Shown here: positions 18,336-40,548 of the stretch, one piece after another
Numbering within the stretch: position 1 is the stretch's first letter
How the letters are laid out: every line of letters begins with the position of its first letter
DNA from: Nitrospirota bacterium
GTDB taxonomy: Bacteria; Nitrospirota; Thermodesulfovibrionia; Thermodesulfovibrionales; UBA6898
Assembly: GCA_016235245.1 (NCBI GenBank)
Contig: JACRLO010000009.1
Span: 1 to 64,000, forward strand
Direction: 5' to 3'
DNA length: 64,000 bases
Translations under genes and position numbers: made by a program
Notes under the pieces: generated by a model
Seen by the model: only the letters and a program-made list of their open reading frames with translations
Told to the model about the DNA's origin: nothing
Databases searched by the model: none

Positions 18336-18350
18336 ATAGACAGAAAAGTC

Positions 18351-19162: not shown

Positions 19163-19195
19163 AAAAAGGAAGGGGAAAGTCATTGCCTTCCCCTT
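19163..19195 (-). terminator. rho-independent terminator
   Basis: Read on the minus strand, AAGGGGAA pairs with TTCCCCTT and the stem is followed by CCTTTTTAA. It lies just after the 55-residue gene and ends the minus-strand transcript that includes DUF932. Confidence 0.75.
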
Positions 19196-19203
19196 GAAAT
19201 GTT

Positions 19204-19371: not shown

Positions 19372-19380
19372 CGTCACCTC

Positions 19381-19596: not shown

Positions 19597-19603
19597 GGAA
19601 ACC

Positions 19604-20317: not shown

Positions 20318-20332
20318 GTTGTAAACCTCCTA

Positions 20333-20578: not shown

Positions 20579-20702
20579 CGACTGCATCCTCCAATGCTTT
20601 GTGAATGATCTGGTTGACTAACCTTGTCATAGGGATCTTCATTTCCTTAGACCTTCTGTAGAGAACCGGGATGTACTGCTCTGATATTTTGGGGCTATAC
20701 AT
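20514..20702 (-). CDS. ribbon-helix-helix-like protein
   Basis: 62 residues: MYSPKISEQYIPVLYRRSKEMKIPMTRLVNQIIHKALED has a short strand followed by two helices, as in RHH DNA-binding proteins. It could repress this operon. The start is ATG 20702, behind GAGGTG. The last 25 residues overlap the next gene. Confidence 0.5.
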   Translation of the reverse strand: MYSPKISEQYIPVLYRRSKEMKIPMTRLVNQIIHKALEDAVDDTNRAVAVGAQVVPPAKACR

Positions 20703-20728
20703 TTTCACCTCGCTTTCTATTTGGGAAT

Positions 20729-21202
20729 TTATAGATATCCCTTTTCTTTGAGTGATACATAGCCATCTCCTATGATCACGTGGTCCAATACTGCAATCCC
20801 GATAATCTCTCCGGCCCCTTTGAGGTTTTCAGTTATCGAAATATCATCGCGGCTTGGTGTCGGATCTCCTGATGGGTGGTTGTGAATCAGCAACAAGGAA
20901 GCTGCTGAAGAGAGCAATGCGGTTTTGAATACTTCCCTTGGATGGATAAGAGAGCCGGTCATGGTCCCTGCTGATACCCTGTCTATGCAGAGTATTCTGT
21001 TTTTTACGTCCAAATGCAGAGCAATAAAGTGCTCCTTTGTCTCCTGTTGCAAAAAACTGAACAGGCTAAAAACTGTTTGAGCATCACTGATGATTTTTGA
21101 AACGTATTGCTCAGTTCCCTCCTGGATGGTCAGTTTTTCATAGACTGCCTTGATTACTTTGAAGTGTGTAGTGCGGCTGTTTTCTAAAAGAACTTTCGGC
21201 AT
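20729..21202 (-). CDS. radC: RadC-like JAB/MPN-domain protein
   Basis: 157 residues. HNHPSGDPTPSRDD is the JAMM metal-binding motif of RadC, preceded by VSAGTMTGSLIHPREVFKTAL. The N-terminal helix-hairpin-helix part of full RadC is missing, as in many plasmid- and phage-borne versions. The function of RadC is unsettled and it is not a proven repair protein. I use the ATG at 21202 after GGAGGAGG, eight bases after the stop of the 55-residue gene before it. Confidence 0.85.
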   Translation of the reverse strand: MPKVLLENSRTTHFKVIKAVYEKLTIQEGTEQYVSKIISDAQTVFSLFSFLQQETKEHFIALHLDVKNRILCIDRVSAGTMTGSLIHPREVFKTALLSSAASLLLIHNHPSGDPTPSRDDISITENLKGAGEIIGIAVLDHVIIGDGYVSLKEKGYL

Positions 21203-21210
21203 ACCTCCTC

Positions 21211-21378
21211 CTAATAGCAGCTGTGGCAATAGGTCTGGATTCTCCCTCCGCCTATTGATACGATGATGAGTGTGTTGGCCAGGTTATGGCCGACGGTGCA
21301 GAAATGTCCGCAATCGAGCCTGATTCTGTTGCCTGACAGAAGCAAGGCCAGATCACTGCTTGCAATCTCTTTGCTCAT
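21211..21378 (-). CDS. small Cys/His-rich protein (55 aa)
   Basis: Starts MSKEIASSDLALLLSGNRIR. Then comes LDCGHFCTVGHNLAN and, at the C-terminus, YCHSCY: two Cys pairs and His residues that could form a zinc knuckle. AAAGGAGGTG is six bases before the ATG. Next to radC in one operon. Confidence 0.6.
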   Translation of the reverse strand: MSKEIASSDLALLLSGNRIRLDCGHFCTVGHNLANTLIIVSIGGGRIQTYCHSCY

Positions 21379-24254: not shown

Positions 24255-24270
24255 TGCAAAGGTAATGCCA
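24255..24270 (-). promoter_or_regulatory. sigma-54 (-24/-12) promoter candidate
   Basis: Minus strand: TGGCATTACCTTTGCA has the GG and GC elements 12 bp apart, matching TGGCAY-N5-TTGCW. It points at the minus-strand gene starting at 24243 and lies next to the divergent sigma-54 activator gene. Confidence 0.5.
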
Positions 24271-24435
24271 GGATCGAAAAACAGCCAATGTTTGGCATTT
24301 AACGAAAATAACCTATTCATTTATAAGAGTTTTCGCTGGAACGTTTTGAGTCTGGGATTCTTGGCCATGTTCTTTAATATGATGTTTATGATAATAATTA
24401 TTGTAATTAACAAGATTATTTGTGTAATATTCAGC

Positions 24436-25953
24436 ATGATTAATAAAGTCTTATTTGCTTGGATAGGCAAAACCGACCTGCGAGCCTCGCTGGGGGAACT
24501 GGGGGATGGGCTTGGACCAATCGGCCAGGCTGTCAGCAAGCGCTCTTTTTCCTGTATTGCCCTTATCTCAAATTACAAAAAGGAAGAAGAAAAGCATTTT
24601 ATAGATTGGCTTAAAACGAAGACATCTGCTCTTGTCCTTAGACATCATGTGGAATTATCCAGCCCTACAGACTTTAAAGAGATTTACGAGTCTGCTACAA
24701 ATACTATAAATGAAGTAAAAATGAGACTCGGGTCAAAAGAAATGCAGCCAACTTATCACCTAAGCCCCGGCACACCAGCTATGGCTGCGGTATGGATACT
24801 TCTCTCAAAGACATCACACCCCGCTGAACTTATAGAATCTTCACAGGAGAAGGGAGTAAAGACCGTATCCCTACCTTTCGAGATATCGGCTGATTATGTT
24901 CCCGATATTCTGAAGCCCGCTGACGATGAAATTCTTAAGCTTACCCAAGGCCTACCTCCTGAGTCTCCTGAGTTTGGGGCAATCATTCATCGCTGCAAAG
25001 AGATGAAGCGAGTTATCGCTCAAGCACGAAGGCTTGCTGTCCATGATGTCCCTGTTCTTATACAGGGAGAATCCGGCACTGGCAAGGAGCTTTTCGCTCG
25101 TGCTATTCATACGACAAGTCCAAGGATGGCTAATCCCTTTGTTGCAGTCAACTGTGGATCAATACCGCCTGAGCTCGTAGAGTCTGAGTTTTTTGGTCAC
25201 ACAAAAGGTGGCTTTACGGGGGCGATTTCCGATAGGAAGGGCTATTTTTCTGCCGCTGATGGAGGCACCCTTTTCCTTGATGAAATCGGAGAGTTGCCCC
25301 TTCCTGCACAGGTAAAGCTTTTGAGAGCAATACAAGAAGGCATGATCACTAAGGTCGGCTCCAGTAAGACGGAGTCTATTAATGTAAGAATCATCGCAGC
25401 GACCAACCGAAACCTTATAGAAGAGGTTGCATCAGGGAGATTCAGGGAAGACTTATTTCACCGTATTGCCGTTGGCGTACTGTATCTACCGCCACTTAGA
25501 GACCGTCACGGAGATCTTAACCCAGCTATCGAGCACATCCTTGAAAGTATTAACCGAAAGTTCGAGGATAGGCCAGGCTGGAAACATAAGAATATTTCTG
25601 CAGGCGCAAGAAATCTTATGCACCAACACCCTTGGCCAGGCAATGTCAGGGAACTCTATAATACTCTTTCGCGGGCTGCTATCCTGATCGCAGGTGAGAC
25701 AATAGAAACTGACGATATCCGTGAGGCATTATTCCCTGTGAGCAGTTCTCAAAATAACCAAGAAAAAATGCTAAATCGCAATCTGGGCAACGGTTTCAGC
25801 CTGCCTGACATGCTTTCAGATGTGGCGCGTCACTATTTGAAAAGAGCGGTTGTGGAAAGCAAAGGAAATAAGACAAAGATTGCCTCGCTGTTAGGCTTAT
25901 CAAACTACCAGACGGCAAGTAACTGGTTAAAGAAATATGGGATCGAGGAGTGA
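24436..25953 (+). CDS. CARF-like sensor, sigma-54 activator
   Basis: 505 residues. A bacterial enhancer-binding protein: Walker A GESGTGKE (211-218), GGFTGA (258-263, the sigma-54 contact loop, normally GAFTGA), Walker [12 protein letters not shown] (278-288) and a Fis-type helix-turn-helix ([20 protein letters not shown]). In place of a receiver the N-terminus is a Rossmann-like sensor with [10 protein letters not shown] (107-116), matching the ligand loop of CARF domains that bind cyclic oligonucleotides, as in RtcR. I use the ATG at 24436; the AT-rich upstream frame would encode an unlikely run of hydrophobic residues. The promoter right after its stop makes the hsd operon its probable target. 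Confidence 0.75.
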
Positions 25954-25969
25954 TGGCACGACGATTGCT
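25954..25969 (+). promoter_or_regulatory. sigma-54 promoter of the hsd operon
   Basis: TGGCACGACGATTGCT matches the consensus TGGCACG-N4-TTGCW with GG (25955-25956) and GC (25967-25968) 12 bp apart. It starts directly after the stop codon of the activator gene and lies 32 bp before hsdR. Transcription would begin near 25980. Confidence 0.85.
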
Positions 25970-26001: not shown

Positions 26002-28374
26002 ATGAATGAAAAAGAGACGTGCAAGCAGATAATTGAACCGGCACTGCAGAATGCTGGCTGGGATTTAGAAGCACAGCTACGCATAGGTCCGGGTCGCGTC
26101 AATCTCACTGGCGAAACACTTACTTCAATGTACGATGAGACGCAGGCAATTATTGCAGACTATCTCCTTCGATATCGTGGTATCCCTCTCGCCATTTTGG
26201 AAGCTAAGGCAAAGTCTGAAGACGCGGCCGACGGCATGCAACAGGCATCACGCTACGCGCACCGCTTATTAATTCGTTTCTCGCTTGCCTCTAACGGACA
26301 TCATTGGATTCTTACTGATAACGATACCGGAAAATACGAAACGCTAACAACCCCACCTACACCTGAAGACATAGTTGGGCGAATGGGTGTCAACATAGAC
26401 TGGGACCGGTGGGCAAGTTCCTTTATTGCTGGCCTTCATGTTGACCAGGTTTCTCGCAAAAAGGTCCGCCCATATCAGGAAATGGCGATTGCAAAAACAC
26501 TATGGCAATTTGCGCAGGGCAATCCACGTGCCCTTTTGTTGATGGCAACAGGCACAGGCAAGACATTCACTGTATTTCAGCTCATTTGGAAGATGCTGAA
26601 CAGCAATGCTCTTAAACGTCAGCATATCCTATTCCTTACCGACCGGAACAGTCTTAAAGATCAGGCCTATCGGGCATTTGCTGCTTTTTCGGCGGACGAA
26701 CGGGTCACTATTGATAAGGAAACTATATCTCAGGGCCAGCATCTTGTCGGCAAGATTTTCTTCGCCAACTATCAGAATCTCGATGAGGAGTTAAATGGCA
26801 AAAAGCTCTATGAATACTACGATCAGGATTTCTTCGATCTTGTCGTAATTGATGAGTGCCATCGGTCGGGTTTCGGTGACTGGTTTGGCGTGCTGGAGCA
26901 TTTCAGCGGTGCACTTCAGCTCGGACTGACTGCTACGCCGCGAGAACTGGAAGAAGCCAGCCGGCCGCTGACCGCTGAAGAAAAACGGCGAGACACTTAT
27001 GATTACTTTGGTGAGCCTATTTATATCTACAGCCTGAAACAGGCTATTGAGGATGGCTATCTTGTTCCTTATCTACTGGAAGAACGTATTACTAATGTTG
27101 ATGAGGCTGGCTACACCGGTCCTGACGGCAAGCACTATACAACTGCAAACTTTGAACGCGATATTCGTATGCCTGACCGGACAAAGGCGATCGCTGAAGA
27201 TCTTTGGGAAATTTCTGGAAAGTATGGGCTGCGCGATGATAAAACAATTATATTCTGTGTCGACGACACTCACGCAGCATTCATGGCCCAGGAGTTACGC
27301 CGCCTCTCCGGCGATAATGACTACGCAGCTCGTATCACTCGGGCTGAACGAAATAGCCATCAGCTTGAGCGCAATTTTGCGATTGTTGGTCCCAGTAATC
27401 CGCGTGTTGCAGTTACTGTGGATCTTTTGACTACCGGTTATGATGCCCCTGATGTAAAAAACATTGTCTTTGCGAGACCGCTGCGCAGTTCAATTCTCTA
27501 CAAACAGATGAAGGGACGCGGCACCCGCCTTTGCGAGGACATTAATAAGCGCTACTTCACTATTTTTGACTATTCGGGTGCAAGTCAACTTGAAGATGCC
27601 GAGTTCGATGGACATCCTGCCAACCAACAAAAGGGAACGCTGCCAAAGTCCAAACCCAAAAAGAAGAGTGAAGACTCAGCTCCTAAGCCGGTGGGGGAAG
27701 GTGTCTCAGTCATCATTTCGGCTACAAATCGATACATCTGCCTTGCAGATGGCCGTAAGATTCCCTTTGAGGAATACACTGAGCAGTCCCGAGAGTTCAT
27801 CTTGGATGTGTCTACTAAAAGCATCGATGAATTGTTATCCATCTGGATTGACAAGAAAAGTCGTCAGGAGCTTCGTGAAGAGTTACGCGATCATGATATA
27901 TATCCATCGGCTTTTCGTCATTACCTGGAATTGCCGCAGACTGATGATGTCGATATTCTTGCCAAGATTGGATTTGACCTGGTCCGTGTTCCTACCCGCC
28001 ATCAGAGGGTAGACAGGTTCTGGCAGAAGGATAAAGCATGGCTGCTTTCCCACTTTGGGATGGCACTTCCTAAAACAGCAGAGATCATTCCTTTTCCAAA
28101 ACCGAATCCGGTTTCTCTTCCTTTGGCTGCCGAAGCTCCGGCAATCTACAAAACAGATGGTCAGCATAAACTTGAATTCTGGGAAACCGCGTTGGACCAT
28201 TATGCACTTTTCGGAATAGACGACCTGGAGCAAGCGCGCACCTACGGCGCACCCCAGTTTGTCGATCAGTTCGGCAGCTTTCAGTCACTGACCCGCCATT
28301 ACGGCGGTGCTCAATTATTAAAAACAGACTTAGAGGCAGTAAAAAAACATCTCTATGTCCCAATGAAGGCATAA
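26002..28374 (+). CDS. hsdR: type I restriction enzyme R subunit
   Basis: 790 residues. An N-terminal nuclease of the PD-(D/E)xK type (Asp53 in ADYLL, EAK 67-69), then a superfamily-2 translocase with Walker A MATGTGKT (181-188), DECH (284-287), TATPR and the LTTGYDAP / GRGTRLC motifs. The C-terminal part resembles EcoEI-type R subunits. It cuts DNA after long-range translocation when bound to an M/S complex. Its promoter is of the sigma-54 type, which is unusual for restriction genes. hsdM follows after 19 bp. Confidence 0.93.
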   Translation: MNEKETCKQIIEPALQNAGWDLEAQLRIGPGRVNLTGETLTSMYDETQAIIADYLLRYRGIPLAILEAKAKSEDAADGMQQASRYAHRLLIRFSLASNGHHWILTDNDTGKYETLTTPPTPEDIVGRMGVNIDWDRWASSFIAGLHVDQVSRKKVRPYQEMAIAKTLWQFAQGNPRALLLMATGTGKTFTVFQLIWKMLNSNALKRQHILFLTDRNSLKDQAYRAFAAFSADERVTIDKETISQGQHLVGKIFFANYQNLDEELNGKKLYEYYDQDFFDLVVIDECHRSGFGDWFGVLEHFSGALQLGLTATPRELEEASRPLTAEEKRRDTYDYFGEPIYIYSLKQAIEDGYLVPYLLEERITNVDEAGYTGPDGKHYTTANFERDIRMPDRTKAIAEDLWEISGKYGLRDDKTIIFCVDDTHAAFMAQELRRLSGDNDYAARITRAERNSHQLERNFAIVGPSNPRVAVTVDLLTTGYDAPDVKNIVFARPLRSSILYKQMKGRGTRLCEDINKRYFTIFDYSGASQLEDAEFDGHPANQQKGTLPKSKPKKKSEDSAPKPVGEGVSVIISATNRYICLADGRKIPFEEYTEQSREFILDVSTKSIDELLSIWIDKKSRQELREELRDHDIYPSAFRHYLELPQTDDVDILAKIGFDLVRVPTRHQRVDRFWQKDKAWLLSHFGMALPKTAEIIPFPKPNPVSLPLAAEAPAIYKTDGQHKLEFWETALDHYALFGIDDLEQARTYGAPQFVDQFGSFQSLTRHYGGAQLLKTDLEAVKKHLYVPMKA

Positions 28375-28393: not shown

Positions 28394-29872
28394 ATGACCA
28401 AGAAGATAGATCATCGTCGTCAGGAAGTCCAGCAAATCGTCAAGAATGCCTGCGACCAGCTTAATGCAGAAGGCGTGGATGCACGCAATTATGTGGAGCA
28501 GCTGGCCTGGCTGTTTTTCCTAAAGGCATTTGATGAGGCTGAAGCGCGTCGCGAGGAAGAAGCATCCTTTGATGATAAGCCGTATGAACGTCGGCTATCA
28601 GGTAATTACGCTTGGTCGGCTTGGGCTAGGGATACAGACCATCCTGACGAGATGTTGGAATTTGTTACGGGCAAGCTCTGGACGAAGCTCACCAGTCCTG
28701 ATCCGAAGAAAGGTTTGGGCGATGATCTGTTAGCCCAGCGGTTCCGCCGCATTTTCGATAATGTGCGTAACTATTGCCGGCGAGGCGTATCTTTTGCAAA
28801 GGTCGTCCAACAGGTCGATAAGCTGCACTTTGCCGATGACACAGATGTGCATGTGCTGTCAGAGATTTATGAGGACCTCCTGAAGCGCGTTGCAGCTGAC
28901 TCGGCTGGGTATGCAGGTGAGTTCTATACCCAGCGGCATGTTATTCGTGCAATGGTGGCGGTTGTTCGACCGAAGTCAGGTGACCGGGTATACGACCCCT
29001 GTTTTGGTACAGCCGGATTTCTTGGAGAGGCTGCAGACTTCATCCGCAAGAATGGCTCGCTTAGCGGTAAGGACCTTGATAATCTCCAGAAGAACACTTT
29101 TTACGGTATGGAGATTAAGCCACTCACTTACCTGCTCGGTACCATGAACATGATACTCCACGGGATCGAGGGTGCTAATCTGGAGCTGACCAATACATTG
29201 GAAATCCACAGCCAGAATGTCGGAGAGAAGGATAAATATAGTGTAATTCTTGCAAATCCTCCCTACGGTGGCAAAATGGATCAGACTATGCAGACTAATT
29301 TCCGTGTTAAGTCCGCTGCGACGGAATGCCTCTTTGTCCAACACATCATGGCCAACCTGGCCAAAGGCGGCCGCGCTGGCGTGGTCATTCCGGAAGGGGT
29401 GCTATTCCGTGGTGGGCCGGATCAGAAAGTCCGCAAGGAATTGATCGAGCAATTCAATGTCCATGCTATCCTCTCGCTTCCTGCAGGATGTTTCTTGCCA
29501 TATACAGGCGTAAAAACCAATGTCATTTTCTTCGACCGGCCTAAGGACGGATCGGGAACAAAGAACGTCTGGTTCTATGAACTTACCAACGATGGATTTG
29601 AGTTAAAGCAGACTCGTAAATCTATTGAAGGCAATCAGATCCCAGATTTCCTTTCCAAGTGGGAGAAACGAATTGAGGGAGAGAACTCCTGGACAGTTCC
29701 CGTGGAGCAGATCATTGAGCGTGGTTACGATCTTTCAGCTAAGAACCCGAATCGGAAGGACGATTACGAGCACCGGCCAGCACTGGAGTTGGTGCAATCT
29801 ATTAAAGCCAAGGAAAACCGAATCATGGAGCTTCTTGATGAATTGGAAGCAATCCTGGAGGCTAAGCAGTGA
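28394..29872 (+). CDS. hsdM: type I DNA methyltransferase M subunit
   Basis: 492 residues. An N-terminal helical domain (VEQLAWLFFLKAFDEAE) and an adenine-N6 methyltransferase: motif I DPCFGTAGFL (201-210) and catalytic NPPYGG (288-293). It protects host DNA at sites chosen by the S subunit. The stop overlaps the GTG start of hsdS by four bases. Confidence 0.93.
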   Translation: MTKKIDHRRQEVQQIVKNACDQLNAEGVDARNYVEQLAWLFFLKAFDEAEARREEEASFDDKPYERRLSGNYAWSAWARDTDHPDEMLEFVTGKLWTKLTSPDPKKGLGDDLLAQRFRRIFDNVRNYCRRGVSFAKVVQQVDKLHFADDTDVHVLSEIYEDLLKRVAADSAGYAGEFYTQRHVIRAMVAVVRPKSGDRVYDPCFGTAGFLGEAADFIRKNGSLSGKDLDNLQKNTFYGMEIKPLTYLLGTMNMILHGIEGANLELTNTLEIHSQNVGEKDKYSVILANPPYGGKMDQTMQTNFRVKSAATECLFVQHIMANLAKGGRAGVVIPEGVLFRGGPDQKVRKELIEQFNVHAILSLPAGCFLPYTGVKTNVIFFDRPKDGSGTKNVWFYELTNDGFELKQTRKSIEGNQIPDFLSKWEKRIEGENSWTVPVEQIIERGYDLSAKNPNRKDDYEHRPALELVQSIKAKENRIMELLDELEAILEAKQ

Positions 29873-31026
29873 CGGCATGGCCTTCAAAGCCGATAGGCAA
29901 TCTGTGCAACTTGATCAATGGGCGTGCCTTTAAGCCCTCAGATTGGGGTGTATCAGGATTGCCTATTGTTCGGATTCAAAACCTTAATGACCATTCAAAA
30001 CCTTTTAACCTTTATAAGGGCAAATTTGTCGAGAAGCATCTTATCGATAATGATGCAATCTTGCTTTCATGGTCCGGTACTCCCGGGACATCTTTCGGAT
30101 GCTTCCGATGGATGCGAGGCCCTGCGATATTAAATCAGCACATCTTTAAGGTGATCGTTAATGAGGAAATAATAGATGGTGATTTCTTCATTTATGCCGT
30201 TAATAGTAAATTGGAAGAGATGATTCGCCAATCTCATGGTGGTGTTGGTCTTCAACATATCACGAAAAGTAAATTGGAGGCAATCCGACTTCCCGTGCCA
30301 CAGCTCGTAGTGCAGCGCCGCATTGTTGCTCGCATTAAGGAGTGCCTGGAACGGATAGAGGAGATAGAGAGCTTACGTGCTACGACTACGCAGGAGCATG
30401 ACTTCTTATTGGAGTCTTTAATCGAGGCTGAGTTCCAGCAAGTCGATGGAGAGCCGGTATCTTTGAGCGAAGTCTGTTCTATCACGTCGATCCTTGTTGA
30501 TCCACGAAAGGGCGCATATCTCGATCTGCCGCACGTTGGGGGAGCGAACATAGAGTCAAAGACTGGATGGCTGCTCGACATCAAAACATCGCGTGGCGAA
30601 AAATTAAAGTCGAGCAAGTTCGTTTTCGATGAAACAATGGTGCTCTATAACAAGATACGACCTTACCTTATGAAGGTGGCGCGTCCTGACTTCAAGGGGC
30701 TATGCAGTGCAGATATGTACCCTTTGGCACCAAACCAGGATAGGCTTACGAGAGACTACTTATTTTACTTGCTGTTGTCTCGAAACTTTACACAGTATGC
30801 GATTGGTGGATCAAACCGAGCGGGTATGCCAAAGGTGAATCGTGAACATCTTTTTGCCTACAATTTTATATTACCTCCAGTGGAGCAACAGGTTCGGCTA
30901 ACTCAAGTAATGGATTCAGCAGCCTCCGCCATCGGAGAGCTTTGCAGTGATATGCGTGCCAGTGCCTTGGAGTCATCGGCTCTTCGACAATCCATTCTGC
31001 GTAAAGCTTTTGCAGGAGAATTGTAA
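29869..31026 (+). CDS. hsdS: type I specificity S subunit
   Basis: 385 residues starting with GTG. Two target-recognition halves can be seen: CNLINGRAFKPSDWGVSGLPIVRIQNL with LLSWSGTPG, and later SEVCSITSILVDPRKGAYLDLPHVGGANI. Each ends in a conserved helix region (LPVPQLVVQRRIVARIKE and LPPVEQQVRLTQVM). It defines the bipartite DNA target. The fusion gene begins five bases after its stop. Confidence 0.9.
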   Translation: MTAWPSKPIGNLCNLINGRAFKPSDWGVSGLPIVRIQNLNDHSKPFNLYKGKFVEKHLIDNDAILLSWSGTPGTSFGCFRWMRGPAILNQHIFKVIVNEEIIDGDFFIYAVNSKLEEMIRQSHGGVGLQHITKSKLEAIRLPVPQLVVQRRIVARIKECLERIEEIESLRATTTQEHDFLLESLIEAEFQQVDGEPVSLSEVCSITSILVDPRKGAYLDLPHVGGANIESKTGWLLDIKTSRGEKLKSSKFVFDETMVLYNKIRPYLMKVARPDFKGLCSADMYPLAPNQDRLTRDYLFYLLLSRNFTQYAIGGSNRAGMPKVNREHLFAYNFILPPVEQQVRLTQVMDSAASAIGELCSDMRASALESSALRQSILRKAFAGEL

Positions 31027-31031
31027 CCATT

Positions 31032-34000
31032 ATGGCTTATCCACCGTCAGTAAATGTGATCTCGCAATTAATATTTCGTATTCGAGAAGATAAGATACCT
31101 GCACATGAAATGGGCGTGGCTCTTGCCGCGCTTATCTATCTGCGCTGGGCCGACTTTCAGGAGTCTGAGCAGGAGGCTATTGCCGCCTTTGACGATGTTG
31201 AGTATGAGCCTGTCTTGCCCGTTTTATTGCACTGGCGGACCTGGCATATGTTTTCGCCAAAAGAGGTTCATGAACTTTTCAGAGGACGTCTCCCCCAGAT
31301 GTTAGAAGGCCTGAATAATTCCCGCTATAACCATTTGGCGACTCATCTGCACCGTATTGCCTCAGCTGTGAGACTTCTGGGTCAGCTATCCCCAAGTTCG
31401 CTTGATGTGATGATCCGTTGGCTTGCTGACCAGCCCTTTGAGACTCAGAGCAACCGCCGGGCCTTGCTGGATGTTTTTGACTCATTGTTGCAGATGCTAC
31501 TTGCAAATAATCAGTATGCGAATAATCGGTTCTTCGGTGAGTTTCATACGCCTGCCCATATCACGCGACTGCTTATTGAAATAGCCTCACCAAACTCTGG
31601 CGAGAGTGTGTATGACCCATGCTTTGGTACATCGGGATTTCTTACAGCGGCATATGACTACGTAACGGGCAAGAAGAGTAATGGATTTAACCGTAATGGC
31701 GATCCACTGCTTAGGATAGCGGGCGTTGAAATAAACTCTAACGCATATTTAATCGGTCTAACCCGTCTTGTACTCGCCGGCGTTGATGATCCTCAGCTTG
31801 AGATGGGAAATAGTCTTGAGCGTCTGCCTTTTAGTAATCCACAGCGCGATGGCTTTGATCTGGTAATACTTAATCCTCCTTGGGGAGGGCGGCAACATCC
31901 ATCGGGATTAGACCACTTCCCTGTGCGGACCTCAGACTCTACAGGTTTGTTCATCCAACATTCTCTTTCACAGTTGCGGCCCCAGGGGCGGGCTGTAATC
32001 ATTGTCCCTGAAGGTTTTCTTTTTAGGGGCGGTGCGGAACAACGACTGCGAAGAATGCTTTTGGAACAGCATGCTGTTGAAGCGGTGGTTTCCCTGCCGA
32101 CGGCAGCTTTTATGCCATACACATCGATAAAAGCGAGTATCCTTGTGCTCAAGCGAGGAGGTCAAACAAAACAGATTCGGATGTTGAATGCTGATTCCTA
32201 TTTCAAAAAAGGAAAAGGAAGGCAGCCTGCAACTATATCTGACGACAAGGTATTACAGCTTGCGGAGGATCTGCGTTCGCTTCAAGCCACTGAAAATAGC
32301 TGGGATGTGGATATCGCAGCGCTTGCTGAGGCTGAATGGGACTTTTCTCCCCGCCGTCGTGATAAAGCCGGATTGTCTGGCGTATTAGATGCGCTTCGAT
32401 CAAAAGTAGAAGTGCAGCTACTCAGGGAATGCTGTAATATCGTTGTCGGGCGAGCCGTGAAGTCAACAGATCTTATAGATAATATCGTTAACAAAGATTG
32501 GGTCAACATATTAATTCCATATGTCCGTATCAAAGATGTGCAGCGCGGGCAGGCAACAAAGGGTTCTTCCTGGTTATCTCCGGAAGCGGCTTCTTCTGTG
32601 GAGGCCAACTGGAAGCTCCGTGCTGGTGATGTTTTACTCTCTAAATCCGGCACTATCGGAAAGACGGGAGTAGTACGAAATGGCGCTGTCGGCGCTATCG
32701 CCGCCTCTGGCCTATTTGTCATCCGACCTGATCAGGACCGGATAGATCCCTATTTTCTCCTTGCATACTTTGAAAGCTCAGAGTGCCGCGCATGGTTTGC
32801 TTCGAAGGCGCGAGGAGCCACTATACAAAACCTTTCTAAAAACGTTCTCGATGAACTGCCAGTCCCTGTGCCGCCATTGCAGATGCAGCATCGCGTTGCT
32901 GAAGAATACCGGGACAATAAGGTCGACGCGCTGACGTTCCTGAGCAAGCTGATGACCGAAGGCGAAAGCGATCCTATTGTTGAGTGGCTTGATAAGTTCT
33001 ATACAAACTTCCCAGCTATTACGGATTCTTTTAATGATCCGCGCGATCTTACTCTCTTGGATCGCCTATCCGACGAAGTTCGTTCCATTCGCAATGCGAC
33101 CGCACATGACCGATTTGGTCGAGGGGATGCACACCTCGTGGCATGGCTACTCAAATTCAATGAGGCTCTGGCTGGCCTGCGTGGAGTGAAGAGTATTCCT
33201 CGCGGTTCCGGGTTACTCAGCGTATTGCAAGAGTCGACTCGTCAAATGGATAATGTGATGCAGATGGTTAGAGGGCAGCAGCGTGAAGAACACATGGCTC
33301 AAACCCTGACCAAACTTGTTCAAGAATGGTTAGTTATGGTGAGCTCAGCTTTGTTAAACGATGTAAAGCTAATCTTGAGCACGGAAACAGGATCGTTGAG
33401 AGCGGGGGAAATGCTGGATATTTCACTCCAGGTCGATAACCAGGGTCCTTTGCCGCTTCGAGAGGTGCTCATAACTACCTCGCCTGATTTCGGCCACGGT
33501 GAGTTTAATTTTCTTGCAGAAAATTCGAAGATTGCAGTTAATCTGTCTGGTGTCGGCCCAAAGGTGACCGGAACTTTCACAATTGTAGCAGATTGGTCTG
33601 CCCTAACTCTTGACGGGCAACGAGTGACGGGCTCACGTGAGCTTGCATTTGAGATCAGAGAAGCAATTACTTTATCTGCTGAACCTGTCATAGATATGGG
33701 CGGCAGTCCGTATGTTTGCGGAGACCCGGTCAAACCGGATCGCAATGACGTATTTTTCGGTCGTGAGGAATTATTGGATCAGATACGCCGGCAGATCATG
33801 CTGAGTGGAAATGTAGTTTTACTTGAAGGGAACCGAAGGGCTGGCAAATCTTCCATATTACGTCACCTTGAGGGGATAGAAGCCGTTCCTGGCTGGCTGG
33901 GTGTATACTGCAGCCTTCAAGGTACGGAGGGAAGTCGGGAAGGTGCGGGCGTACCTACGGTAGAGGTTTTTCGAGGTATCGCGATTAGCATTGCGACAAG

Positions 34001-34928
34001 CTTACAAAGGCTTGGAGCTGAGACACCGTTGCCGGATGGGTCTATTCTTCCCCCAGGGAAAAGACTCGGCATTACCGATGCTTGTATTGCTGGAATCAAG
34101 GAGACCTCCCCATTCTCGTATTTTCGTGAGTATATCGAGATTGTTCTTGAAACGCTCGCACAGAAAAAACTTGGGCTGCTGTTAATGCTGGATGAGTTCG
34201 ACAAGCTTCAGGAAGGTATTGATAGCGGTATCACATCCCCTCAAGTTCCTGAGAACATACGGTTTCTCGTTCAGACCTATCCGCATTTCTCTGCAATACT
34301 CACAGGCTCACGACGACTGAAACGTTTACGAGAAGAATATTGGTCTGCATTATTTGGACTTGGGACACGTTTTGGAGTCACCTCTCTGCCACCTGATTCG
34401 GCAGGGCATCTTGTGACGGAGCCTGTAAAGGGGCGGCTAACCTATTCAAAGGAAGCTGTTGATCGCGCTATAACGCTGACTGATAGGCAGCCATACCTTT
34501 TACAGTGCCTCTGTAATCGAATATTCGATATGGCCGCACAGCTCAAGACTCGTTCTATTACACTTGATTTGGTCGAACGCGCCGGAGATGCATTGGTTGA
34601 GGATAATGAGCACTTTGCAAGCTTATGGGATTATGCCGGCTCAGATCGCCGCCGCTTTATTCTTGCTCTCTGCCAGCGAGAGGGGAAGAGTCCTGACTCC
34701 TTCCGTTTGGGCGTTATTCAGGAACAGCTGGTGAATTGTGGAATTGAGGTGGAGGACGAGAGGATTATAGCTGATCTCGAGTTTCTCCGAGAATTAGAGT
34801 TGATCGACCTTGTAGGGGAATCTTACGTTCTCTCCATTTCGTTAATGGGAACGTGGATTGAAAGACAACAGGACTTTGCTGTCCTTATGAGTAAGGCAAG
34901 GTCTGAAACGGAGGATCTACATGAGTGA
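31032..34928 (+). CDS. methyltransferase-TRD-RNxxxH-ATPase fusion
   Basis: 1,298 residues, five parts in order. (1) HsdM-like adenine methyltransferase, DPCFGTSGFL (195-204) and NPPWGG (281-286). (2) One HsdS-like target-recognition domain (about 460-630, AGDVLLSKSGTIGKTG and VPVPPLQMQHRVAEEY). (3) A helical segment with R687-N688-ATA-H692, the HEPN-type RNxxxH motif. (4) A beta-sandwich (about 775-880). (5) An AAA/STAND-like ATPase (FFGRE, Walker A GNRRAGKS 933-940, Walker B LLMLDEF 1050-1056) with a C-terminal winged-helix-like tail. It overlaps the next gene by 8 bp. I know of no named system with this order. The methyltransferase part is sure; the HEPN part is inferred from one motif. Confidence 0.8.
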   Translation: MAYPPSVNVISQLIFRIREDKIPAHEMGVALAALIYLRWADFQESEQEAIAAFDDVEYEPVLPVLLHWRTWHMFSPKEVHELFRGRLPQMLEGLNNSRYNHLATHLHRIASAVRLLGQLSPSSLDVMIRWLADQPFETQSNRRALLDVFDSLLQMLLANNQYANNRFFGEFHTPAHITRLLIEIASPNSGESVYDPCFGTSGFLTAAYDYVTGKKSNGFNRNGDPLLRIAGVEINSNAYLIGLTRLVLAGVDDPQLEMGNSLERLPFSNPQRDGFDLVILNPPWGGRQHPSGLDHFPVRTSDSTGLFIQHSLSQLRPQGRAVIIVPEGFLFRGGAEQRLRRMLLEQHAVEAVVSLPTAAFMPYTSIKASILVLKRGGQTKQIRMLNADSYFKKGKGRQPATISDDKVLQLAEDLRSLQATENSWDVDIAALAEAEWDFSPRRRDKAGLSGVLDALRSKVEVQLLRECCNIVVGRAVKSTDLIDNIVNKDWVNILIPYVRIKDVQRGQATKGSSWLSPEAASSVEANWKLRAGDVLLSKSGTIGKTGVVRNGAVGAIAASGLFVIRPDQDRIDPYFLLAYFESSECRAWFASKARGATIQNLSKNVLDELPVPVPPLQMQHRVAEEYRDNKVDALTFLSKLMTEGESDPIVEWLDKFYTNFPAITDSFNDPRDLTLLDRLSDEVRSIRNATAHDRFGRGDAHLVAWLLKFNEALAGLRGVKSIPRGSGLLSVLQESTRQMDNVMQMVRGQQREEHMAQTLTKLVQEWLVMVSSALLNDVKLILSTETGSLRAGEMLDISLQVDNQGPLPLREVLITTSPDFGHGEFNFLAENSKIAVNLSGVGPKVTGTFTIVADWSALTLDGQRVTGSRELAFEIREAITLSAEPVIDMGGSPYVCGDPVKPDRNDVFFGREELLDQIRRQIMLSGNVVLLEGNRRAGKSSILRHLEGIEAVPGWLGVYCSLQGTEGSREGAGVPTVEVFRGIAISIATSLQRLGAETPLPDGSILPPGKRLGITDACIAGIKETSPFSYFREYIEIVLETLAQKKLGLLLMLDEFDKLQEGIDSGITSPQVPENIRFLVQTYPHFSAILTGSRRLKRLREEYWSALFGLGTRFGVTSLPPDSAGHLVTEPVKGRLTYSKEAVDRAITLTDRQPYLLQCLCNRIFDMAAQLKTRSITLDLVERAGDALVEDNEHFASLWDYAGSDRRRFILALCQREGKSPDSFRLGVIQEQLVNCGIEVEDERIIADLEFLRELELIDLVGESYVLSISLMGTWIERQQDFAVLMSKARSETEDLHE

Positions 34929-36516
34929 TTTAACATTTCCAATCCTGGGGACAGACATTCCGCCAATGCTTGGCCGGACCAAGATTATGCAGAGACTTTG
35001 GAGTGACCTGACGAAAGCCACACCCAGCAACCTGTCCATAATCGGTCCAAGGTTCGTTGGCAAAACCGTAATTATGAATGCCCTATCGCAACGAGCAGAA
35101 CGCGAAGACTCACCCTATGAGTTTGTGCTTTACTGGCATCTTGGCCATGATACTCCAAGATCTGATAGTGACTTTATTACTCAACTTTGCGATTTGCTTC
35201 AAAAAAAACTGGCGTCTATTGATAATAAATATGCTGAACATGAAGCATACCTTGGTAAGCACTCGTATAACCACCTTAAGGAGGTTACTGACTTACTTAC
35301 TTATGATGCTAAGCCTATTCTCATGATTTGGGATTGTTTAGACAAACCATTAGGTCAAGGGAATATATCCGGCGACCTCTGGAACCAGATGCGAGGAATA
35401 TTCTACGGAACGCAGCACAAAATAGTTACTGCAACGCGAAAGCCTTTAAGCGAGCTCATTCGAAGTGAGGACGCTCTTGATAGCCCATTCTGGAATATCT
35501 TTGATATGAATCTTGTACGTGTCGAAGCCTTCGATGATGCTGATTGTGAAACAATTATAAACACACTACATAGTCATTCTTTCCAGCCAGGCGCTAAAAC
35601 CGAGCTAATTAACTGGTCTTCTGGTTTTCCTCCTTTTTTTCTTGGCTTGCTGAATCATATAATTGCTGACAAGCCTAACGGATCTATTGACAATGCATGT
35701 GTGAATAGTGCGGCATCAAAAGCTGCAGAAACTTTATCTCCTATGATTAGTGCGCTTTGGGTGGATTGCCCAGCTTCTGCTAAAGATATCTATGTTCACT
35801 TAGTGGAGCGTGGCGACCTGCCATTAAAAGATATCGGGAAGGATGCCCGGGCTTGTTTAATTGAAAAAGGTTTTGCAAAGGAGTCTGGCAACAAGCTCGC
35901 ATTCTCAAGCCGAATGTTACAACAATATGTTGTGGGTTCTGGTTCCGACACAGGAAGCATGGCTCGACTGTTCGGAACTTGGGATGATTACAGGTCAAAT
36001 ATCCGAAGTCTGTTGGAACGTCGACTTGCCCAAATAGCACGTTTTGATGATCGCTTGTATGTTTTCGTTGCCCGCGCGATTCAAGATATCCCAGACCTCC
36101 CCGACGTTTGTCTCAATCATCTAACAAGCATTGAAGAACGTGCCCTTGATCTGATATGGCAACGTGAATTTGGGTCGACAAAAACGATACCCCAAAATCT
36201 TATCGATTTTTGGGCTTATGCTGCACCTTCAGACAAAACCGCGCAGCGCCTAAAAGAGCAGGCTGTTACATCCGTGCCCCCTGATCGCTGGCTCCAGTGC
36301 GGCATTTTGCAACTCTTAACAGGAAGTAAACAGGGAGTCGATTATCGAGCTCAACATGTAACGAAGGATACGTATGTCTTAATCAATGCGTTGCACAGCT
36401 TTCGTAATCGAAATCAACACTCCGAGGGGCAGGACATGCATGTCGGCGTCGCCGTAGCTGCGATCACGACCTGCTTGGAGCTCTTGTCGTGCTTGGAGAG
36501 GGAGTTGGCACCATGA
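34921..36516 (+). CDS. ATPase with C-terminal RNxxxH motif
   Basis: 531 residues. P-loop ATPase domain with GPRFVGKT (42-49), Walker B-like LMIWDCLD (134-141) and a sensor-like ATRKPLSELI, a middle helical region, and a C-terminal helical domain with SFRNRNQHSEG (R495, N496, H500). R-N-x3-H is the catalytic signature of many HEPN ribonucleases, and the layout ATPase plus C-terminal nuclease recalls PrrC and RloC, tRNA-cutting guards of type I restriction systems, though the sequence is not close to them. The ATGAGTGA overlap with the fusion gene couples their translation. Confidence 0.6.
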   Translation: MSDLTFPILGTDIPPMLGRTKIMQRLWSDLTKATPSNLSIIGPRFVGKTVIMNALSQRAEREDSPYEFVLYWHLGHDTPRSDSDFITQLCDLLQKKLASIDNKYAEHEAYLGKHSYNHLKEVTDLLTYDAKPILMIWDCLDKPLGQGNISGDLWNQMRGIFYGTQHKIVTATRKPLSELIRSEDALDSPFWNIFDMNLVRVEAFDDADCETIINTLHSHSFQPGAKTELINWSSGFPPFFLGLLNHIIADKPNGSIDNACVNSAASKAAETLSPMISALWVDCPASAKDIYVHLVERGDLPLKDIGKDARACLIEKGFAKESGNKLAFSSRMLQQYVVGSGSDTGSMARLFGTWDDYRSNIRSLLERRLAQIARFDDRLYVFVARAIQDIPDLPDVCLNHLTSIEERALDLIWQREFGSTKTIPQNLIDFWAYAAPSDKTAQRLKEQAVTSVPPDRWLQCGILQLLTGSKQGVDYRAQHVTKDTYVLINALHSFRNRNQHSEGQDMHVGVAVAAITTCLELLSCLERELAP

Positions 36517-36601: not shown

Positions 36602-38359
36602 ATGTACGACAAAATTAAAGAAGAAATAAAACAGGATTATTACAAGCAAAACTTCCCGAACGAGGGGCAGAGATTTGTCGCTTGGTATTTAATGAATATC
36701 CATCTGAGGGATAAGAATGAGACCAAAGATTGTATTACTGATGGACCAGACGATAAACAGATAGACGCAATCGTTATAGATGACGATAAGGCCACAGTAT
36801 TTGTGATTCAGGGTAAGTTTATAGGGTCAGACAAAGTCGATGCTGCTCCGTTACGAGAGGTGCTTTCTTCCTGGATACAGCTTAAAGATCTCGTGAGACT
36901 TCAGGAAGTGGGGAATATTAAGCTTAAAAGAAAGCTGGCTGAAGTAGCGACTGCTCTTGAGGATGATTACGATGTCTCATTTGAGCTTATAACTACTTCT
37001 TCACTTACCGATGCTGCTAAAACAGATTTAGCGACTTTTCAGGAGCAACTTGCAAATGCAGAAGACCTTGCGGCGACTATCCATCTTGTGGACCAGGATG
37101 AACTAAGGCGTCGTTATGATATGGCACTTGAAAAGGACAACCCCAGTATTAGGCATACGATAAAACTCGAACCGAATAAATACCTGAAAATGGACGTTGG
37201 AGGAACACAGGCAGTTCTGGCTGCTATTCAATTGAAAGACTGCCTAAGTTTTCCGGGAGTTAAAGATGGAACATTGTTCCAAAAGAATGTGCGTCAGTCT
37301 CTTGGTCTTAATAACGCTGTCAATAAGGGTATTAAGAACACGATATATGGAGACAAGCACCGTGATTTCTTCTTTTTTCATAATGGGATAACAGCTATCT
37401 GCAATAAAATGACGTTCAATGCTGAGAACAACCTTGAGCTCCAAGGGTTAAGCGTCGTGAATGGTTGCCAGTCCCTAAACACTATCCTGTCATGTAGTGA
37501 ACGCGTAAAGACTGTATTAGATACATACATAATGTTCAGATTTTATGAGATCCCGCAAAGAGACAGGGCTGATAGAATCAGTATTTCCACTAACTCCCAG
37601 AGCGCTGTTAAGCCTCGTGATTTGCGAAGCAATGACAAGAGAGTGCTCAATCTGAAAAGGGTCTTTGAACAGAAATATGCAGCTGGGTATTTCATAACAA
37701 AAAGGGGAGAAGCCCCGCCCGCGGAAAAAGACAGGAATTATGTTCTGGATCTTTCTGACTTTGGAAAATACCTTATATCATGGCATTCACAACGGCCCAA
37801 TATCGCCTATAGCGAAGCCAAAATATTTGATAAGTATTTTGAGCAGTTATTCAAACGGAATGAAGAGTATAAACCTGAAAAGGCACAGGCACTTAATTTT
37901 TGGATGACTGAGATTATGAAAGGATGGGTCCCCGCCAATCCATTGGGATTGAATGAATCGTTGTTGGCCATGAAGGCGTATGCGCCGTTCCATCAGCTCT
38001 ATGCGACCTCTATATGTTTTTCAAAATCGAATAACCAGATTGATCGAGTGCCTAATCCATTTGCATGCTGGGAGCGAGTACAAAGCAAGGGCCTGGTTGA
38101 GCAAATAGTGCAAATTGCGGGAACATGTCTCAATACTGCACTTGAAGCTGCGGCTAATGAGCCCTTGCCTCAAAATCGAGTCTTTAGCCCTCAAAACTGG
38201 ATAAAAACTAAAACTTGCCTATCGGGAATAAATGCTGCCGTCGGCCAGTATTTCGCAATGCTCCCCTCAATGCCCGGAGGAAAAGAGCTGAGCAAAAATC
38301 TCAGAGAATCGCTTGCCCTACCGGTGGAAGATTTTGAATACAGATGGGCAGCCGATTGA
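36602..38359 (+). CDS. AIPR-family abortive-infection protein
   Basis: 585 residues. The central part has the AIPR signature FFFHNGITAICNKM and LSVVNGCQSLNTI. The N-terminus, DDKQIDAIVIDDDKATVFVIQGKF (about 51-73), looks like a Mrr/PD-(D/E)xK nuclease core with Asp55 and Gln70-x-Lys72. Family members are linked to phage resistance; the mechanism is not well settled. GGAGGGG precedes the ATG. It follows the ATPase gene by 85 bp, so it may be part of the same operon or have its own promoter. Confidence 0.8.
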   Translation: MYDKIKEEIKQDYYKQNFPNEGQRFVAWYLMNIHLRDKNETKDCITDGPDDKQIDAIVIDDDKATVFVIQGKFIGSDKVDAAPLREVLSSWIQLKDLVRLQEVGNIKLKRKLAEVATALEDDYDVSFELITTSSLTDAAKTDLATFQEQLANAEDLAATIHLVDQDELRRRYDMALEKDNPSIRHTIKLEPNKYLKMDVGGTQAVLAAIQLKDCLSFPGVKDGTLFQKNVRQSLGLNNAVNKGIKNTIYGDKHRDFFFFHNGITAICNKMTFNAENNLELQGLSVVNGCQSLNTILSCSERVKTVLDTYIMFRFYEIPQRDRADRISISTNSQSAVKPRDLRSNDKRVLNLKRVFEQKYAAGYFITKRGEAPPAEKDRNYVLDLSDFGKYLISWHSQRPNIAYSEAKIFDKYFEQLFKRNEEYKPEKAQALNFWMTEIMKGWVPANPLGLNESLLAMKAYAPFHQLYATSICFSKSNNQIDRVPNPFACWERVQSKGLVEQIVQIAGTCLNTALEAAANEPLPQNRVFSPQNWIKTKTCLSGINAAVGQYFAMLPSMPGGKELSKNLRESLALPVEDFEYRWAAD

Positions 38360-38433
38360 AATAGACTCCTTATTAAAATAGATCGCTTTGGATCTGATGT
38401 TGATGAGGCCATTAAAGAAAAGAGGTGATTAGA

Positions 38434-39405
38434 TTGCAGAAAATACTATTTTTGAACGTCGGTTGGATGAAATACTACACAGGGATCACAGACGATCAGA
38501 TTGTTGGCGGCGGGTCTTTTGTTCAGGAGCATGGATTTGGACACGAGATTTTTAATTATCAGTCTTACAGTGGTCACTTGTATGGCTATGTGCAACCAGT
38601 AGGAAAGACGATAAGAATAGAAAGACTTGGAGCATTAGAACAAGACGCATCTATCAATGACGTCCTTGTTGTTTGGGTTTCAAGATCGCCTGTAGGAGGG
38701 GTTTATATAATTGGATGGTATAAGAATGCAATAGTTTACAGAAATTGGCAACATGCTCCGAGAAATTCAAATAGGACACATAAAAATGAAGAGCTCGGTT
38801 TTTTTGTTGAAGCAGGAGAGGATGATTGCACGTTGTTGCCGTTAGACAAAAGGATATTTCAGATACCAAGAGGGGAAGGAGGAATGGGACAATCAAATGT
38901 TTGGTACGCAGATCAAAAAGAACATATTGGATTTAAACAAAGTGTAACGGATTATATTACTCAAAACAAGCTTCCCCAGGATTACAAAACAAAAAGGACT
39001 GCTCAGGGAAAACCTTGGCAGACTGATCCATTTAAAAGGCAAGAAGTGGAAAGAGCTGCTGTTAAACTAACAATAAATTATTATACACACTTGGGCTATT
39101 CTGTAGATTCTGTTGAAAAAGATAATGTTGGCTGGGACTTAGAAGCATCTCTCAATGAAAGAAAATTGAAACTCGAAGTTAAGGGATTGTCTTGCGAGGA
39201 GTTAATAATTGAGCTCACACCAAATGAATATGTAAATATGAAAAAACACAAGGACAGCTATAGAATATGTGTTGTTACAAAAGCACTTAGCAAACATGCT
39301 TCTCTGTCAGTTTTCTCATTTTCGCCTGAAAGCGGAAAATGGGAAGATGAACAGCAAAGACAATTAAAGCTCGTTGAAATTATTAGTGTCAGAATGAATG
39401 TTTAA
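38434..39405 (+). CDS. DUF3883-domain protein
   Basis: 323 residues with a TTG start behind GAGGTG; the annotated GTG nine bases earlier overlaps that site. The C-terminal part (VERAAVKLTINYYTHLGYSV, then VGWDLEASLNERKLKLEVKGL) is a DUF3883 domain with PD-(D/E)xK-like residues D and E-x-K. The N-terminal 150 residues (FLNVGWMKYYTG, GGGSFVQEHGFGHEIFNYQ) form a separate domain I cannot name; it might read modified or foreign nucleic acid. Probably a defence effector, as such proteins often sit beside restriction genes. Confidence 0.65.
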   Translation: MQKILFLNVGWMKYYTGITDDQIVGGGSFVQEHGFGHEIFNYQSYSGHLYGYVQPVGKTIRIERLGALEQDASINDVLVVWVSRSPVGGVYIIGWYKNAIVYRNWQHAPRNSNRTHKNEELGFFVEAGEDDCTLLPLDKRIFQIPRGEGGMGQSNVWYADQKEHIGFKQSVTDYITQNKLPQDYKTKRTAQGKPWQTDPFKRQEVERAAVKLTINYYTHLGYSVDSVEKDNVGWDLEASLNERKLKLEVKGLSCEELIIELTPNEYVNMKKHKDSYRICVVTKALSKHASLSVFSFSPESGKWEDEQQRQLKLVEIISVRMNV

Positions 39406-39444: not shown

Positions 39445-40548
39445 TTAGCAATTTCTTTCCTCTATCTCCCTGACTAAATCTGCAAGATTGCCATTTTGGA
39501 ATGAGTTGTCATTGCGCCAATTGCCTGAGCCACGCTTCTGAACAGTATATAATCCCGTAACTTGGTTATGAACCACCCGGTGCAGAATTCGACCATAACG
39601 CGTCGCACAGCCATCCTCAACTCGCCAGTCGTGAATATCAGAACGAATTGCCCCGATCCTGGCCAAGAACTCAGAACACGATTGATAACGTCTCTGCGGA
39701 TCTATACTGCACGCCTTCGATATTGTGCGCCTGAGCTGTTCGCATACCCAAGGCGGCAGGGAGTTGATGTCGACTATTTGACCACGGACGATACGATTTT
39801 TTATAACATTAGCCGCATATATTTGTTTGTCAATTGGATCTGGTAGCAGACGGTATTCTCGCAACTGACGAGCATTGAGCCACGCTGATTCCTCATACGG
39901 TAATGCACCACCAAGAAGCTGGAACATTACAACACCAACCTGGTAAAGATCGCTTGAAATCCCATACATCCTTGAACCGATGGACTCAGGTGGACGGTAT
40001 ATAAGTGAATGCCCCGAGCCTGGAATTGTGTGCTGACCGTCAGGCATTCGTTTCACAGAACCAAAATCACCGATGACAGCACGATCATCATCTGATAGTA
40101 AAATATTCTGAGCTTTCAAATCTCGGTGAAGAAGTCTTCCGGCGTGCAAATGACTTAATCCTGACAAAATGTCTCTGCTTAGATTGATTGCTCGAATGTT
40201 TGCGTGGATGCCACGACACATTTCATCGTCAAGATCGCCCCTGTGATAAAAGGGCGTCGCAAAGTATGCGAAATCACCGTCGACAATGGCTGCGTGCATC
40301 ACATTGATGACATTAGGAGAATTTAGTCCACTAAGGTATCTCGGCTCGGCATGGTATAAAGGATCGCCGGACCAGTCGTAGAACTTAACCGCTACGCGTT
40401 GCTCGTGTACAATGTTAGTGCCAAAGAATAGCCAGCCGCAACTCCCCTTGCGGCTTTGCTTATCGAACGAGATGCTAACAGAAAGTTCCCTCAATTTATC
40501 CCTTATGGGTTCGGGGATTGTCAGCGTATCGAGGTTAAGTGGTGGCAT
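39445..40548 (-). CDS. Hanks-type Ser/Thr protein kinase
   Basis: 367 residues. ATP-binding VAVK (Lys55), HRDLKAQN (141-148), DFG (161-163) and PPESI give a full, probably active kinase. The glycine loop KGSCGW is degenerate. The C-terminal 90 residues are a small extra domain (WRVEDGCATRYGRILHRVVHNQVTGLYTVQKRG). There is no transmembrane helix, so it acts in the cytoplasm. It starts three bases after the DUF3010-like gene, so the two act together. Kinases of this kind are known in phage abortive infection. Confidence 0.88.
   Translation of the reverse strand: MPPLNLDTLTIPEPIRDKLRELSVSISFDKQSRKGSCGWLFFGTNIVHEQRVAVKFYDWSGDPLYHAEPRYLSGLNSPNVINVMHAAIVDGDFAYFATPFYHRGDLDDEMCRGIHANIRAINLSRDILSGLSHLHAGRLLHRDLKAQNILLSDDDRAVIGDFGSVKRMPDGQHTIPGSGHSLIYRPPESIGSRMYGISSDLYQVGVVMFQLLGGALPYEESAWLNARQLREYRLLPDPIDKQIYAANVIKNRIVRGQIVDINSLPPWVCEQLRRTISKACSIDPQRRYQSCSEFLARIGAIRSDIHDWRVEDGCATRYGRILHRVVHNQVTGLYTVQKRGSGNWRNDNSFQNGNLADLVREIEERNC

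Follow-up and report, generated by a model that had tools for sequence, protein, structure and literature searches.

The 64-kb stretch of DNA analysed here (the window, in which coordinates count from the first letter) carries a conserved gene set that comprises a CARF/sigma-54 activator, a sigma-54 promoter, hsdR, hsdM, hsdS, a gene for a fusion of methylase, specificity, and ATPase parts, and a gene for an ATPase (ATPase-HEPN protein) whose C-terminal domain most likely has a HEPN fold. This set is a larger finding than the RNxxxH motif of the last protein, and its strongest conserved feature is the CARF/sigma-54 control, which was absent from the reading given in the first-pass annotation of this DNA.

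Operon organization and predicted sigma-54 control

The window contains a complete type I restriction-modification set, including HsdR with helicase and nuclease motifs, HsdM, and HsdS (Table 1). The gene order hsdR, hsdM, hsdS, fusion, and ATPase-HEPN was kept in the window and in loci L002, L023, and L024, with a TIR gene between hsdM and hsdS in L002. HsdR and HsdM were 77–90% identical among the four complete loci, and the fusion and ATPase-HEPN proteins were 41–58% identical; this greater divergence is as expected for sensor and effector parts. The AIPR/AbiU-like gene that follows in the window was not common to L002 or L024 and is probably operon cargo, and the NOV_C gene is probably cargo as well.

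Table 1. Features of the operon and of the ATPase-HEPN protein in the window (feature, coordinates, strand, characteristics).
RtcR-like CARF/sigma-54 activator (bEBP)	24265..25953	+	Sigma54_activat 8.6e-68; PADLOC RtcR_PspF2 CARF_AAA_HTH 3.1e-194 over 61-561
Sigma-54 promoter TGGCACGACGATTGCT	25954..25969	+	directly after activator stop codon, 32 nt before hsdR
HsdR (EcoAI-like)	26002..28374	+	Walker A, DECH, and nuclease D...EAK present
HsdM	28394..29872	+	NPPY motif
HsdS	29869..31026	+	Methylase_S 2.5e-26, two stretches; two target recognition domains
HsdM-HsdS(half)-helical-ATPase fusion	31032..34928	+	1298 aa; NPPW methylase motif; second P-loop GNRRAGKS at 933-940
ATPase-HEPN gene (P0001)	34921..36516	+	STAND/Orc-like ATPase with predicted C-terminal HEPN-fold domain, 531 aa
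Segment folded in isolation	35944..36513	+	residues 342-531; pLDDT 84.5; HEPN-matching part ~373-531
RNRNQH motif	36403..36420	+	residues 495-500 (R495-N496-R497-N498-Q499-H500) of ATPase-HEPN protein
AIPR/AbiU-like gene	36602..38359	+	AIPR 5.8e-36, AbiU 2.4e-33; same strand
NOV_C (DUF3883-like) gene	38425..39405	+	NOV_C 1.2e-09

The activator of the window was 54% identical to that of L024, which belongs to the same family (PADLOC RtcR_PspF2, 9.7e-203), and an alignment of the two suggests that translation starts ~57 codons downstream of the listed ATG. The consensus of sigma-54 promoters is TGGCACN5TTGCW, and TGGCACGACGATTGCT was its only exact match in the 64-kb window, for which ~0.05 matches per 64 kb are expected. 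L024 showed the same order of activator, exact sigma-54 site (in the same position), and hsdR, and an exact site was located 28 nt before hsdR in L023. At L018, the upstream end of the L002 contig, a small ORF separates hsdR from a site with one mismatch, which is located ~350 nt before the gene, and the sequence preceding this site appears to encode an activator's C-terminal HTH. The window, L018, L023, and L024 are all four loci in which sequence upstream of an intact hsdR could be read; L001 was cut before the promoter region. In L004, 2 kb of sequence were examined and contained no sigma-54 site, and the stretch read included no separate hsdM or hsdS.

The fusion and the ATPase-HEPN gene

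The fusion combines an N6-methylase with half of a specificity subunit, a middle part of helical/beta character, and a second P-loop ATPase. Of the five copies in which its methylase motif could be read (that of L001 is cut), three have NPPW and two have damaged forms, namely TPPW in L024 and HPPV in L004; this variability suggests that methylase catalysis is dispensable in the fusion. BLAST detected no similarity between the ATPase-HEPN protein and the fusion, and the two are therefore not recent duplicates.

Translation of the ATPase-HEPN gene from its ATG yielded a protein with the Walker A motif GPRFVGKT (residues 42–49), and its ATPase part matched NACHT/AAA_16/AAA_22 and Orc/RFC folds, with no match to ABC ATPases. 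Because the fusion gene ends at 34928 and the next gene starts at 34921, the two overlap by 8 nt (ATGAGTGA). The same 8-nt overlap was present in five of the six loci, including the window, L001 (from ORF ends), L004 (from annotated ends), and L023 and L024 (both measured), whereas L002 has a 1-nt gap and no overlap. The ORF, the P-loop, the RNxxxH near the C-terminus, and the overlap described in the first-pass annotation were all confirmed, and its interpretation was supported in part: a P-loop ATPase whose C-terminal domain probably has a HEPN fold, according to structural matches, lies beside a type I restriction system.

The Orc/RFC-type AAA+ alignment of the ATPase half, the methylase/specificity portion of the fusion, and the 8-nt gene coupling could also be explained if the two ATPases formed an accessory motor or clamp (Orc/RFC-like) of the type I enzyme that controls methylation versus restriction and involves no cell shutdown. 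This explanation appears very unlikely, as a HEPN fold would be unusual in a DNA motor and the full hsdRMS set that is already present needs no such motor.

RNxxxH occurred anywhere in the ATPase-HEPN protein in 3.8% of composition shuffles and within its last 60 residues in 0.3%; taken alone, these statistics are weak support for a motif beyond chance. Three of the 38 window ORFs scanned carried RNxxxH, namely the ATPase-HEPN protein, the fusion (RNATAH, 687–692), and the ORF at 47999–50920. The fusion motif was rejected as a second HEPN site, with R, N, and H present in only two of six loci (window and L001).

Fold of the C-terminal domain

The C-terminal domain folded in isolation gave a model with a pLDDT of 84.5 and a pTM of 0.81. 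Its best solved match in VIA-align was 2hsb (Z 10.6, rmsd 2.8, 116/126 aligned), although Z values under ~13 in this structure comparison are not decisive for helical bundles, which can reach them by shape alone; for this reason, the HEPN fold of the domain is graded as likely and not as proven. Further HEPN matches included 2q00 (Z 9.2), Csm6' 8pe3 (9.1), EiCsm6 6tug (8.9), the sacsin HEPN domain 3o10 (8.8), and HepT 6m6u (8.4). HEPN proteins accounted for seven of the top eight rows and 15 of the 50 listed (2hsb, 2q00, 8pe3, 6tug, 3o10, 2jpu, 6m6u, 6m6w, 7bxo, 5yep, 8xdj, 1wwp, 8xeh, 1wty, and 6y2p), with 1wty taken here to be a HEPN protein. Similarly, 6y2p is RnlA (RNase LS) and is taken to be a HEPN protein, partly on the basis of PMC4012209. 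The labels of the other 13 were taken from entry titles or from the accessible text of PMC3710099, PMC7101355, and PMC7641770. The full-length model, which was built with three orthologous sequences, was poor (pLDDT 57.9); for its C-terminal part, EiCsm6 ranked first (Z 9.9 over 135 residues), followed by S. epidermidis Csm6 (Z 8.3) and the HepT toxin SO_3166 (Z 8.1).

No HEPN profile matched the window domain in Pfam, PADLOC, or NCBIfam searches, and the best sequence-level HEPN match was HEPN_Swt1 (Pfam, E=0.1), obtained for a single one of three orthologous domains and not for that of the window. No HEPN sequence profile matched the L023 and L024 domains, comparison of the domain with the sequences of solved structures returned no HEPN match, and Foldseek on the isolated domain found no match with E below 0.001. 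The first-pass annotation would have given up its reading if both a HEPN match and a helix pair around the motif were missing; the pair was present, and the HEPN match came from the fold and hardly from sequence.

In the models, the motif lies between helices at ~482–497 and 508–529, in which one helix ends at R495, H500 falls at or just past the helix end, and the following helix runs from ~508. Model residue 190 pairs with HepT 133; assuming no gap in the last helix, H500 then falls on HepT 102, and a histidine at this position is implied by the RX4HXY motif of HepT, whose tyrosine is Y104 (accessible text of PMC7641770). The EiCsm6 register was five residues off without a gap, with H500 at 382 against the catalytic H377 of a motif formed by R372, N373, and H377 (accessible text of PMC7101355).

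An unrelated helical bundle with a coincidental RNxxxH would account for the missing sequence-level match of the window protein, for the shuffle frequency of the motif anywhere in the protein, and for the existence of orthologues without R and N (see below), and unrelated bundles did reach scores up to Z 8.9, the best such row being a designed protein. However, such a coincidence is improbable, considering the share of HEPN proteins in the top eight rows and in the whole list, their lead for the same region in the independent full-length model, and the position of the motif at the right helix-loop-helix place.

Relatives and the RN and GD forms

The system is rare and scattered. A scan of GTDB contigs identified two relatives of the ATPase-HEPN protein, L001 (67% identity) and L002 (57%). 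Within the limits set for these searches, one of 395 genomes of the window's phylum and one of 230 of its class contained a relative, which was the window's genome itself both times. In the phylum of G396, three of 395 genomes had a match (G396, a partial copy in G528, and an ATPase-only match in G438), and a draw around G395 that largely repeated previous genomes also gave three of 395. The class of G396 yielded six of 389, comprising full-length proteins in G395, G396, G1177, and G869 and ATPase-only matches in G1022 and G1037. The ATPase-only matches of G438, G1022, and G1037 were rejected as orthologues, as they lacked the C-terminal domain or the restriction context. Three of 72,556 plasmid records had a match, all from Acinetobacter ursingii. 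Searches of viral contigs with the ATPase-HEPN protein (P0001), alignment A1, and the fusion alignment A2 revealed no relative, and a search of phages with the fusion ATPase domain revealed none.

Six full-length orthologues were aligned, with the frameshifted copy H2/L005 and H3 (81% coverage) omitted. The motif took the form F-RNRxQ-H in the window, L001, and L002, and F-GDFGQ-H, with G and D in place of R and N, in L004, L023, and L024; the partial G528 copy has Y-RNRTE-H and hence RNxxxH. R and N were therefore present in three of the six full-length orthologues and H in all six, and F494, Q499, H500, G509, and E520 were invariant. The three RN-type full-length proteins and the partial G528 copy conform to the Rx4-6H pattern of HEPN proteins, in which N, D, or H follows R; of this pattern, L004, L023, and L024 keep the H only. 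A branch with support 1.0 divided the RN from the GD forms, both with the tail and after its removal, and thus one change, in either direction, separates them. A decay of R and N was considered for L004, because the DECH of HsdR and the NPPY of the fusion are also lost there and because the L005 copy is frameshifted, but was dropped once intact operons were found to carry the GD form as well: in L023 and L024, HsdR DECH, HsdM NPPY, and exact sigma-54 promoters are all intact, so that the loss of R and N is not mere decay and these loci look functional. Consequently, RNxxxH does not hold up as the defining catalytic motif that the first-pass annotation took it for, since R and N are absent in three of six orthologues, two of which lie in intact operons. 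From the alignment, either the GD members would have an inactive or altered HEPN domain, or R and N are not the decisive residues in any of these proteins.

Another explanation is a HEPN fold without catalysis, a dimerisation or RNA/nucleotide-binding module of the ATPase, with the effect exerted via the restriction complex, for example by gating HsdR or by holding HsdR on DNA. Half of the full-length members lacking R and N around an invariant core, the occurrence of GD members in intact operons, and the record by Anantharaman et al. of HEPN families without R but with H (accessible text of PMC3710099) are all in line with it. On the other hand, R495, N496, R497, Q499, and H500 are all retained in the RN clade across 57–67% identity, and RNxxxH recurs in the partial G528 copy; this conservation is difficult to reconcile with R and N having no role. 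A non-catalytic HEPN domain is thus possible but rather unlikely.

Proposed function

The ATPase-HEPN protein may be the effector arm of a two-protein module on a type I restriction operon, in which the HEPN domain of RN-type members would cut RNA and shut the cell down; this proposal has about an even chance of being correct. The protein is read here as an abortive-infection effector of the type I operon that would be PrrC-like in logic with a different ATPase. Its probable role is that of a shutdown switch of last resort, although half of the known relatives are missing a residue that RNA cleavage would require. The guard-type toxin reading of the first-pass annotation can be kept by analogy only. 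In the proposed sequence of events, the activator would sense a nucleic-acid damage product and turn the operon on, with induction possibly by RNA damage, following the logic of the RtcR and CoCoNuT precedents; Salmonella RtcR binds fragments of tRNA that carry a terminal 2',3'-cyclic phosphate (accessible text of PMC7790460). HsdRMS would attack invading DNA first, and the fusion, which is a natural sensor because it holds target-recognition and methylase parts, would sense whether restriction is engaged or failing. If restriction fails, the fusion and its partner ATPase would release the HEPN domain, which in RN-type members would cut RNA through R495/H500 and cause cell shutdown. In GD-type members, the switch would be the same but would act on an inactive or altered HEPN domain.

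A further extension is a self-amplifying restriction and suicide circuit, in which the methylase-specificity half of the fusion would read the state of the target DNA or of the HsdRMS complex and the paired ATPases would unlock the HEPN RNase. The CARF/sigma-54 activator would then respond to the cyclic-phosphate RNA ends that the RNase produces and increase expression of the entire operon. RtcB is encoded on another contig of the window's genome, which gave no match to RtcA, and an RNase would therefore be the natural source of cyclic-phosphate ends. This circuit as a whole is doubtful.

Comparison with known systems

PrrC and RloC, similar to the protein described here, carry a C-terminal HEPN-type domain on an ATPase, and a type I hsdMSR set encoded together with PrrC keeps it inactive (accessible text of PMC3710099); linkage to type I hsd genes is found here as well. 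In contrast, the PrrC and RloC ATPase is of the SbcC/Rad50-like ABC type, whereas a STAND/Orc-like ATPase is present here, and the partner here is an HsdM-HsdS-ATPase fusion, which the accessible text of PMC3710099 does not describe for PrrC. The DUF499 ATPase-HEPN proteins (Ava_2192 type; Hma; “Type-1 BREX-related”) also combine a HEPN domain, of the Swt1/Abi2 family, with a STAND/Orc-like AAA+ ATPase, and an N6 methylase and a helicase are their neighbours (accessible text of PMC3710099 and PMC12839542). However, their HEPN domain is N-terminal, whereas here it is C-terminal, with no DUF499 match and with the full HsdRMS present.

RtcR-linked CoCoNuT superoperons likewise have an RtcR-like CARF/sigma-54 activator, type I restriction-modification, and a HEPN RNase in the same direction, and a feedback from HEPN to CARF through cyclic-phosphate RNA ends has been proposed for them (accessible text of PMC11090510). 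Their HEPN domain resides on CnuE, whereas here it is part of the ATPase, and a Pfam scan of 20 window proteins gave no match to the McrB-like GTPase and McrC-like partner of CoCoNuT. In 2014, an RtcR-like CARF-AAA-HTH family was noted as “often associated with restriction-modification systems,” and sigma-54 action was predicted (PMC4012209); the activator here is of the same kind, but the gene set and promoter are not described in the accessible text of that paper. Weak methylase, specificity, and kinase similarity to the MAD2/MAD5/MAD6 models of MADS was also observed. Identity with MADS was rejected, as the NCBIfam scores were all far under the cut-offs (MADS2, 90.6 of 720 bits; MADS6, 69.6 of 460) and the activator, HsdR, and fusion point elsewhere.

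A literature search found no description of this gene set, but most subscription journals were outside its reach, and the case for novelty is correspondingly weak. Each part belongs to a known kind; an HsdM-HsdS-ATPase fusion together with an ATPase-HEPN protein under CARF/sigma-54 control was not found in this literature, and this combination is tentatively regarded as new.

If the proposed function is correct, this system would be a second solution to the PrrC idea, the linking of cell shutdown to a type I restriction enzyme through an effector, built on an unrelated ATPase, and a methylase/specificity subunit would apparently have been rebuilt as part of an ATPase sensor. With the clean consensus promoters, the control of restriction by CARF/sigma-54 activators that was predicted in 2014 becomes open to experiment. 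Furthermore, the RN/GD split offers a natural comparison; if only RN members were toxic, the two clades would separate sensing from killing.

Genomic surroundings of the operon

The window also contained minus-strand genes encoding a TrwB/TraD-like coupling protein, DUF932 and RadC, and their presence suggests that its defence genes are carried by a mobile element. A serine/threonine kinase gene was convergent with the operon. A sigma-54-like site with one mismatch points away from the activator gene and may be a chance match. At the G396 locus (L002), a Thoeris ThsB-like TIR gene separates hsdM from hsdS, and a CBASS set (HNH-SAVED, DncV-like cyclase, and E2-like) lies immediately 3' of the ATPase-HEPN gene. 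The HNH and cyclase genes located downstream in G528, a genome with a partial ATPase-HEPN copy, are apparently common to the G396 locus.

Features of the window and of related loci
Feature	Location	Strand	Remark
Coupling protein, DUF932, RadC genes	window 15808-21229	-	
Sigma-54-like site	window 24255-24270	-	
Fusion gene	window 31032-34928	+	
RNATAH of the fusion	window 33090-33107	+	residues 687-692
Kinase gene	window 39445-40548	-	resembles MAD6 and PD-T4-6 models
973-aa ORF	window 47999-50920	+	RNSFVH at residue 295
TIR gene and CBASS set	L002 3895-4848 and 11597-14651		also L015
Acinetobacter ursingii plasmid locus	L004 8798-16563		

Variation of the fusion protein and its orthologues

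RNxxxH was also found in a 973-aa ORF without a Pfam match, and in a helical segment of the window fusion (RNATAH). Comparison of orthologues placed RNRVAH at the same position in the L001 fusion, whereas the motif was absent from the fusions of L002, L004, L023, and L024 (present in two of six loci).

On the Acinetobacter ursingii plasmid (L004), catalytic residues were gone from HsdR, the fusion methylase, and the HEPN motif, although the reading frames were still open; a sister plasmid copy (L005) was frameshifted. The window, L002, and L023 fusions share NPPW as methylase motif IV; L024 has TPPW and L004 HPPV. Judged from sequence, this variation looks as if the methylase half were shifting toward a non-catalytic sensor.
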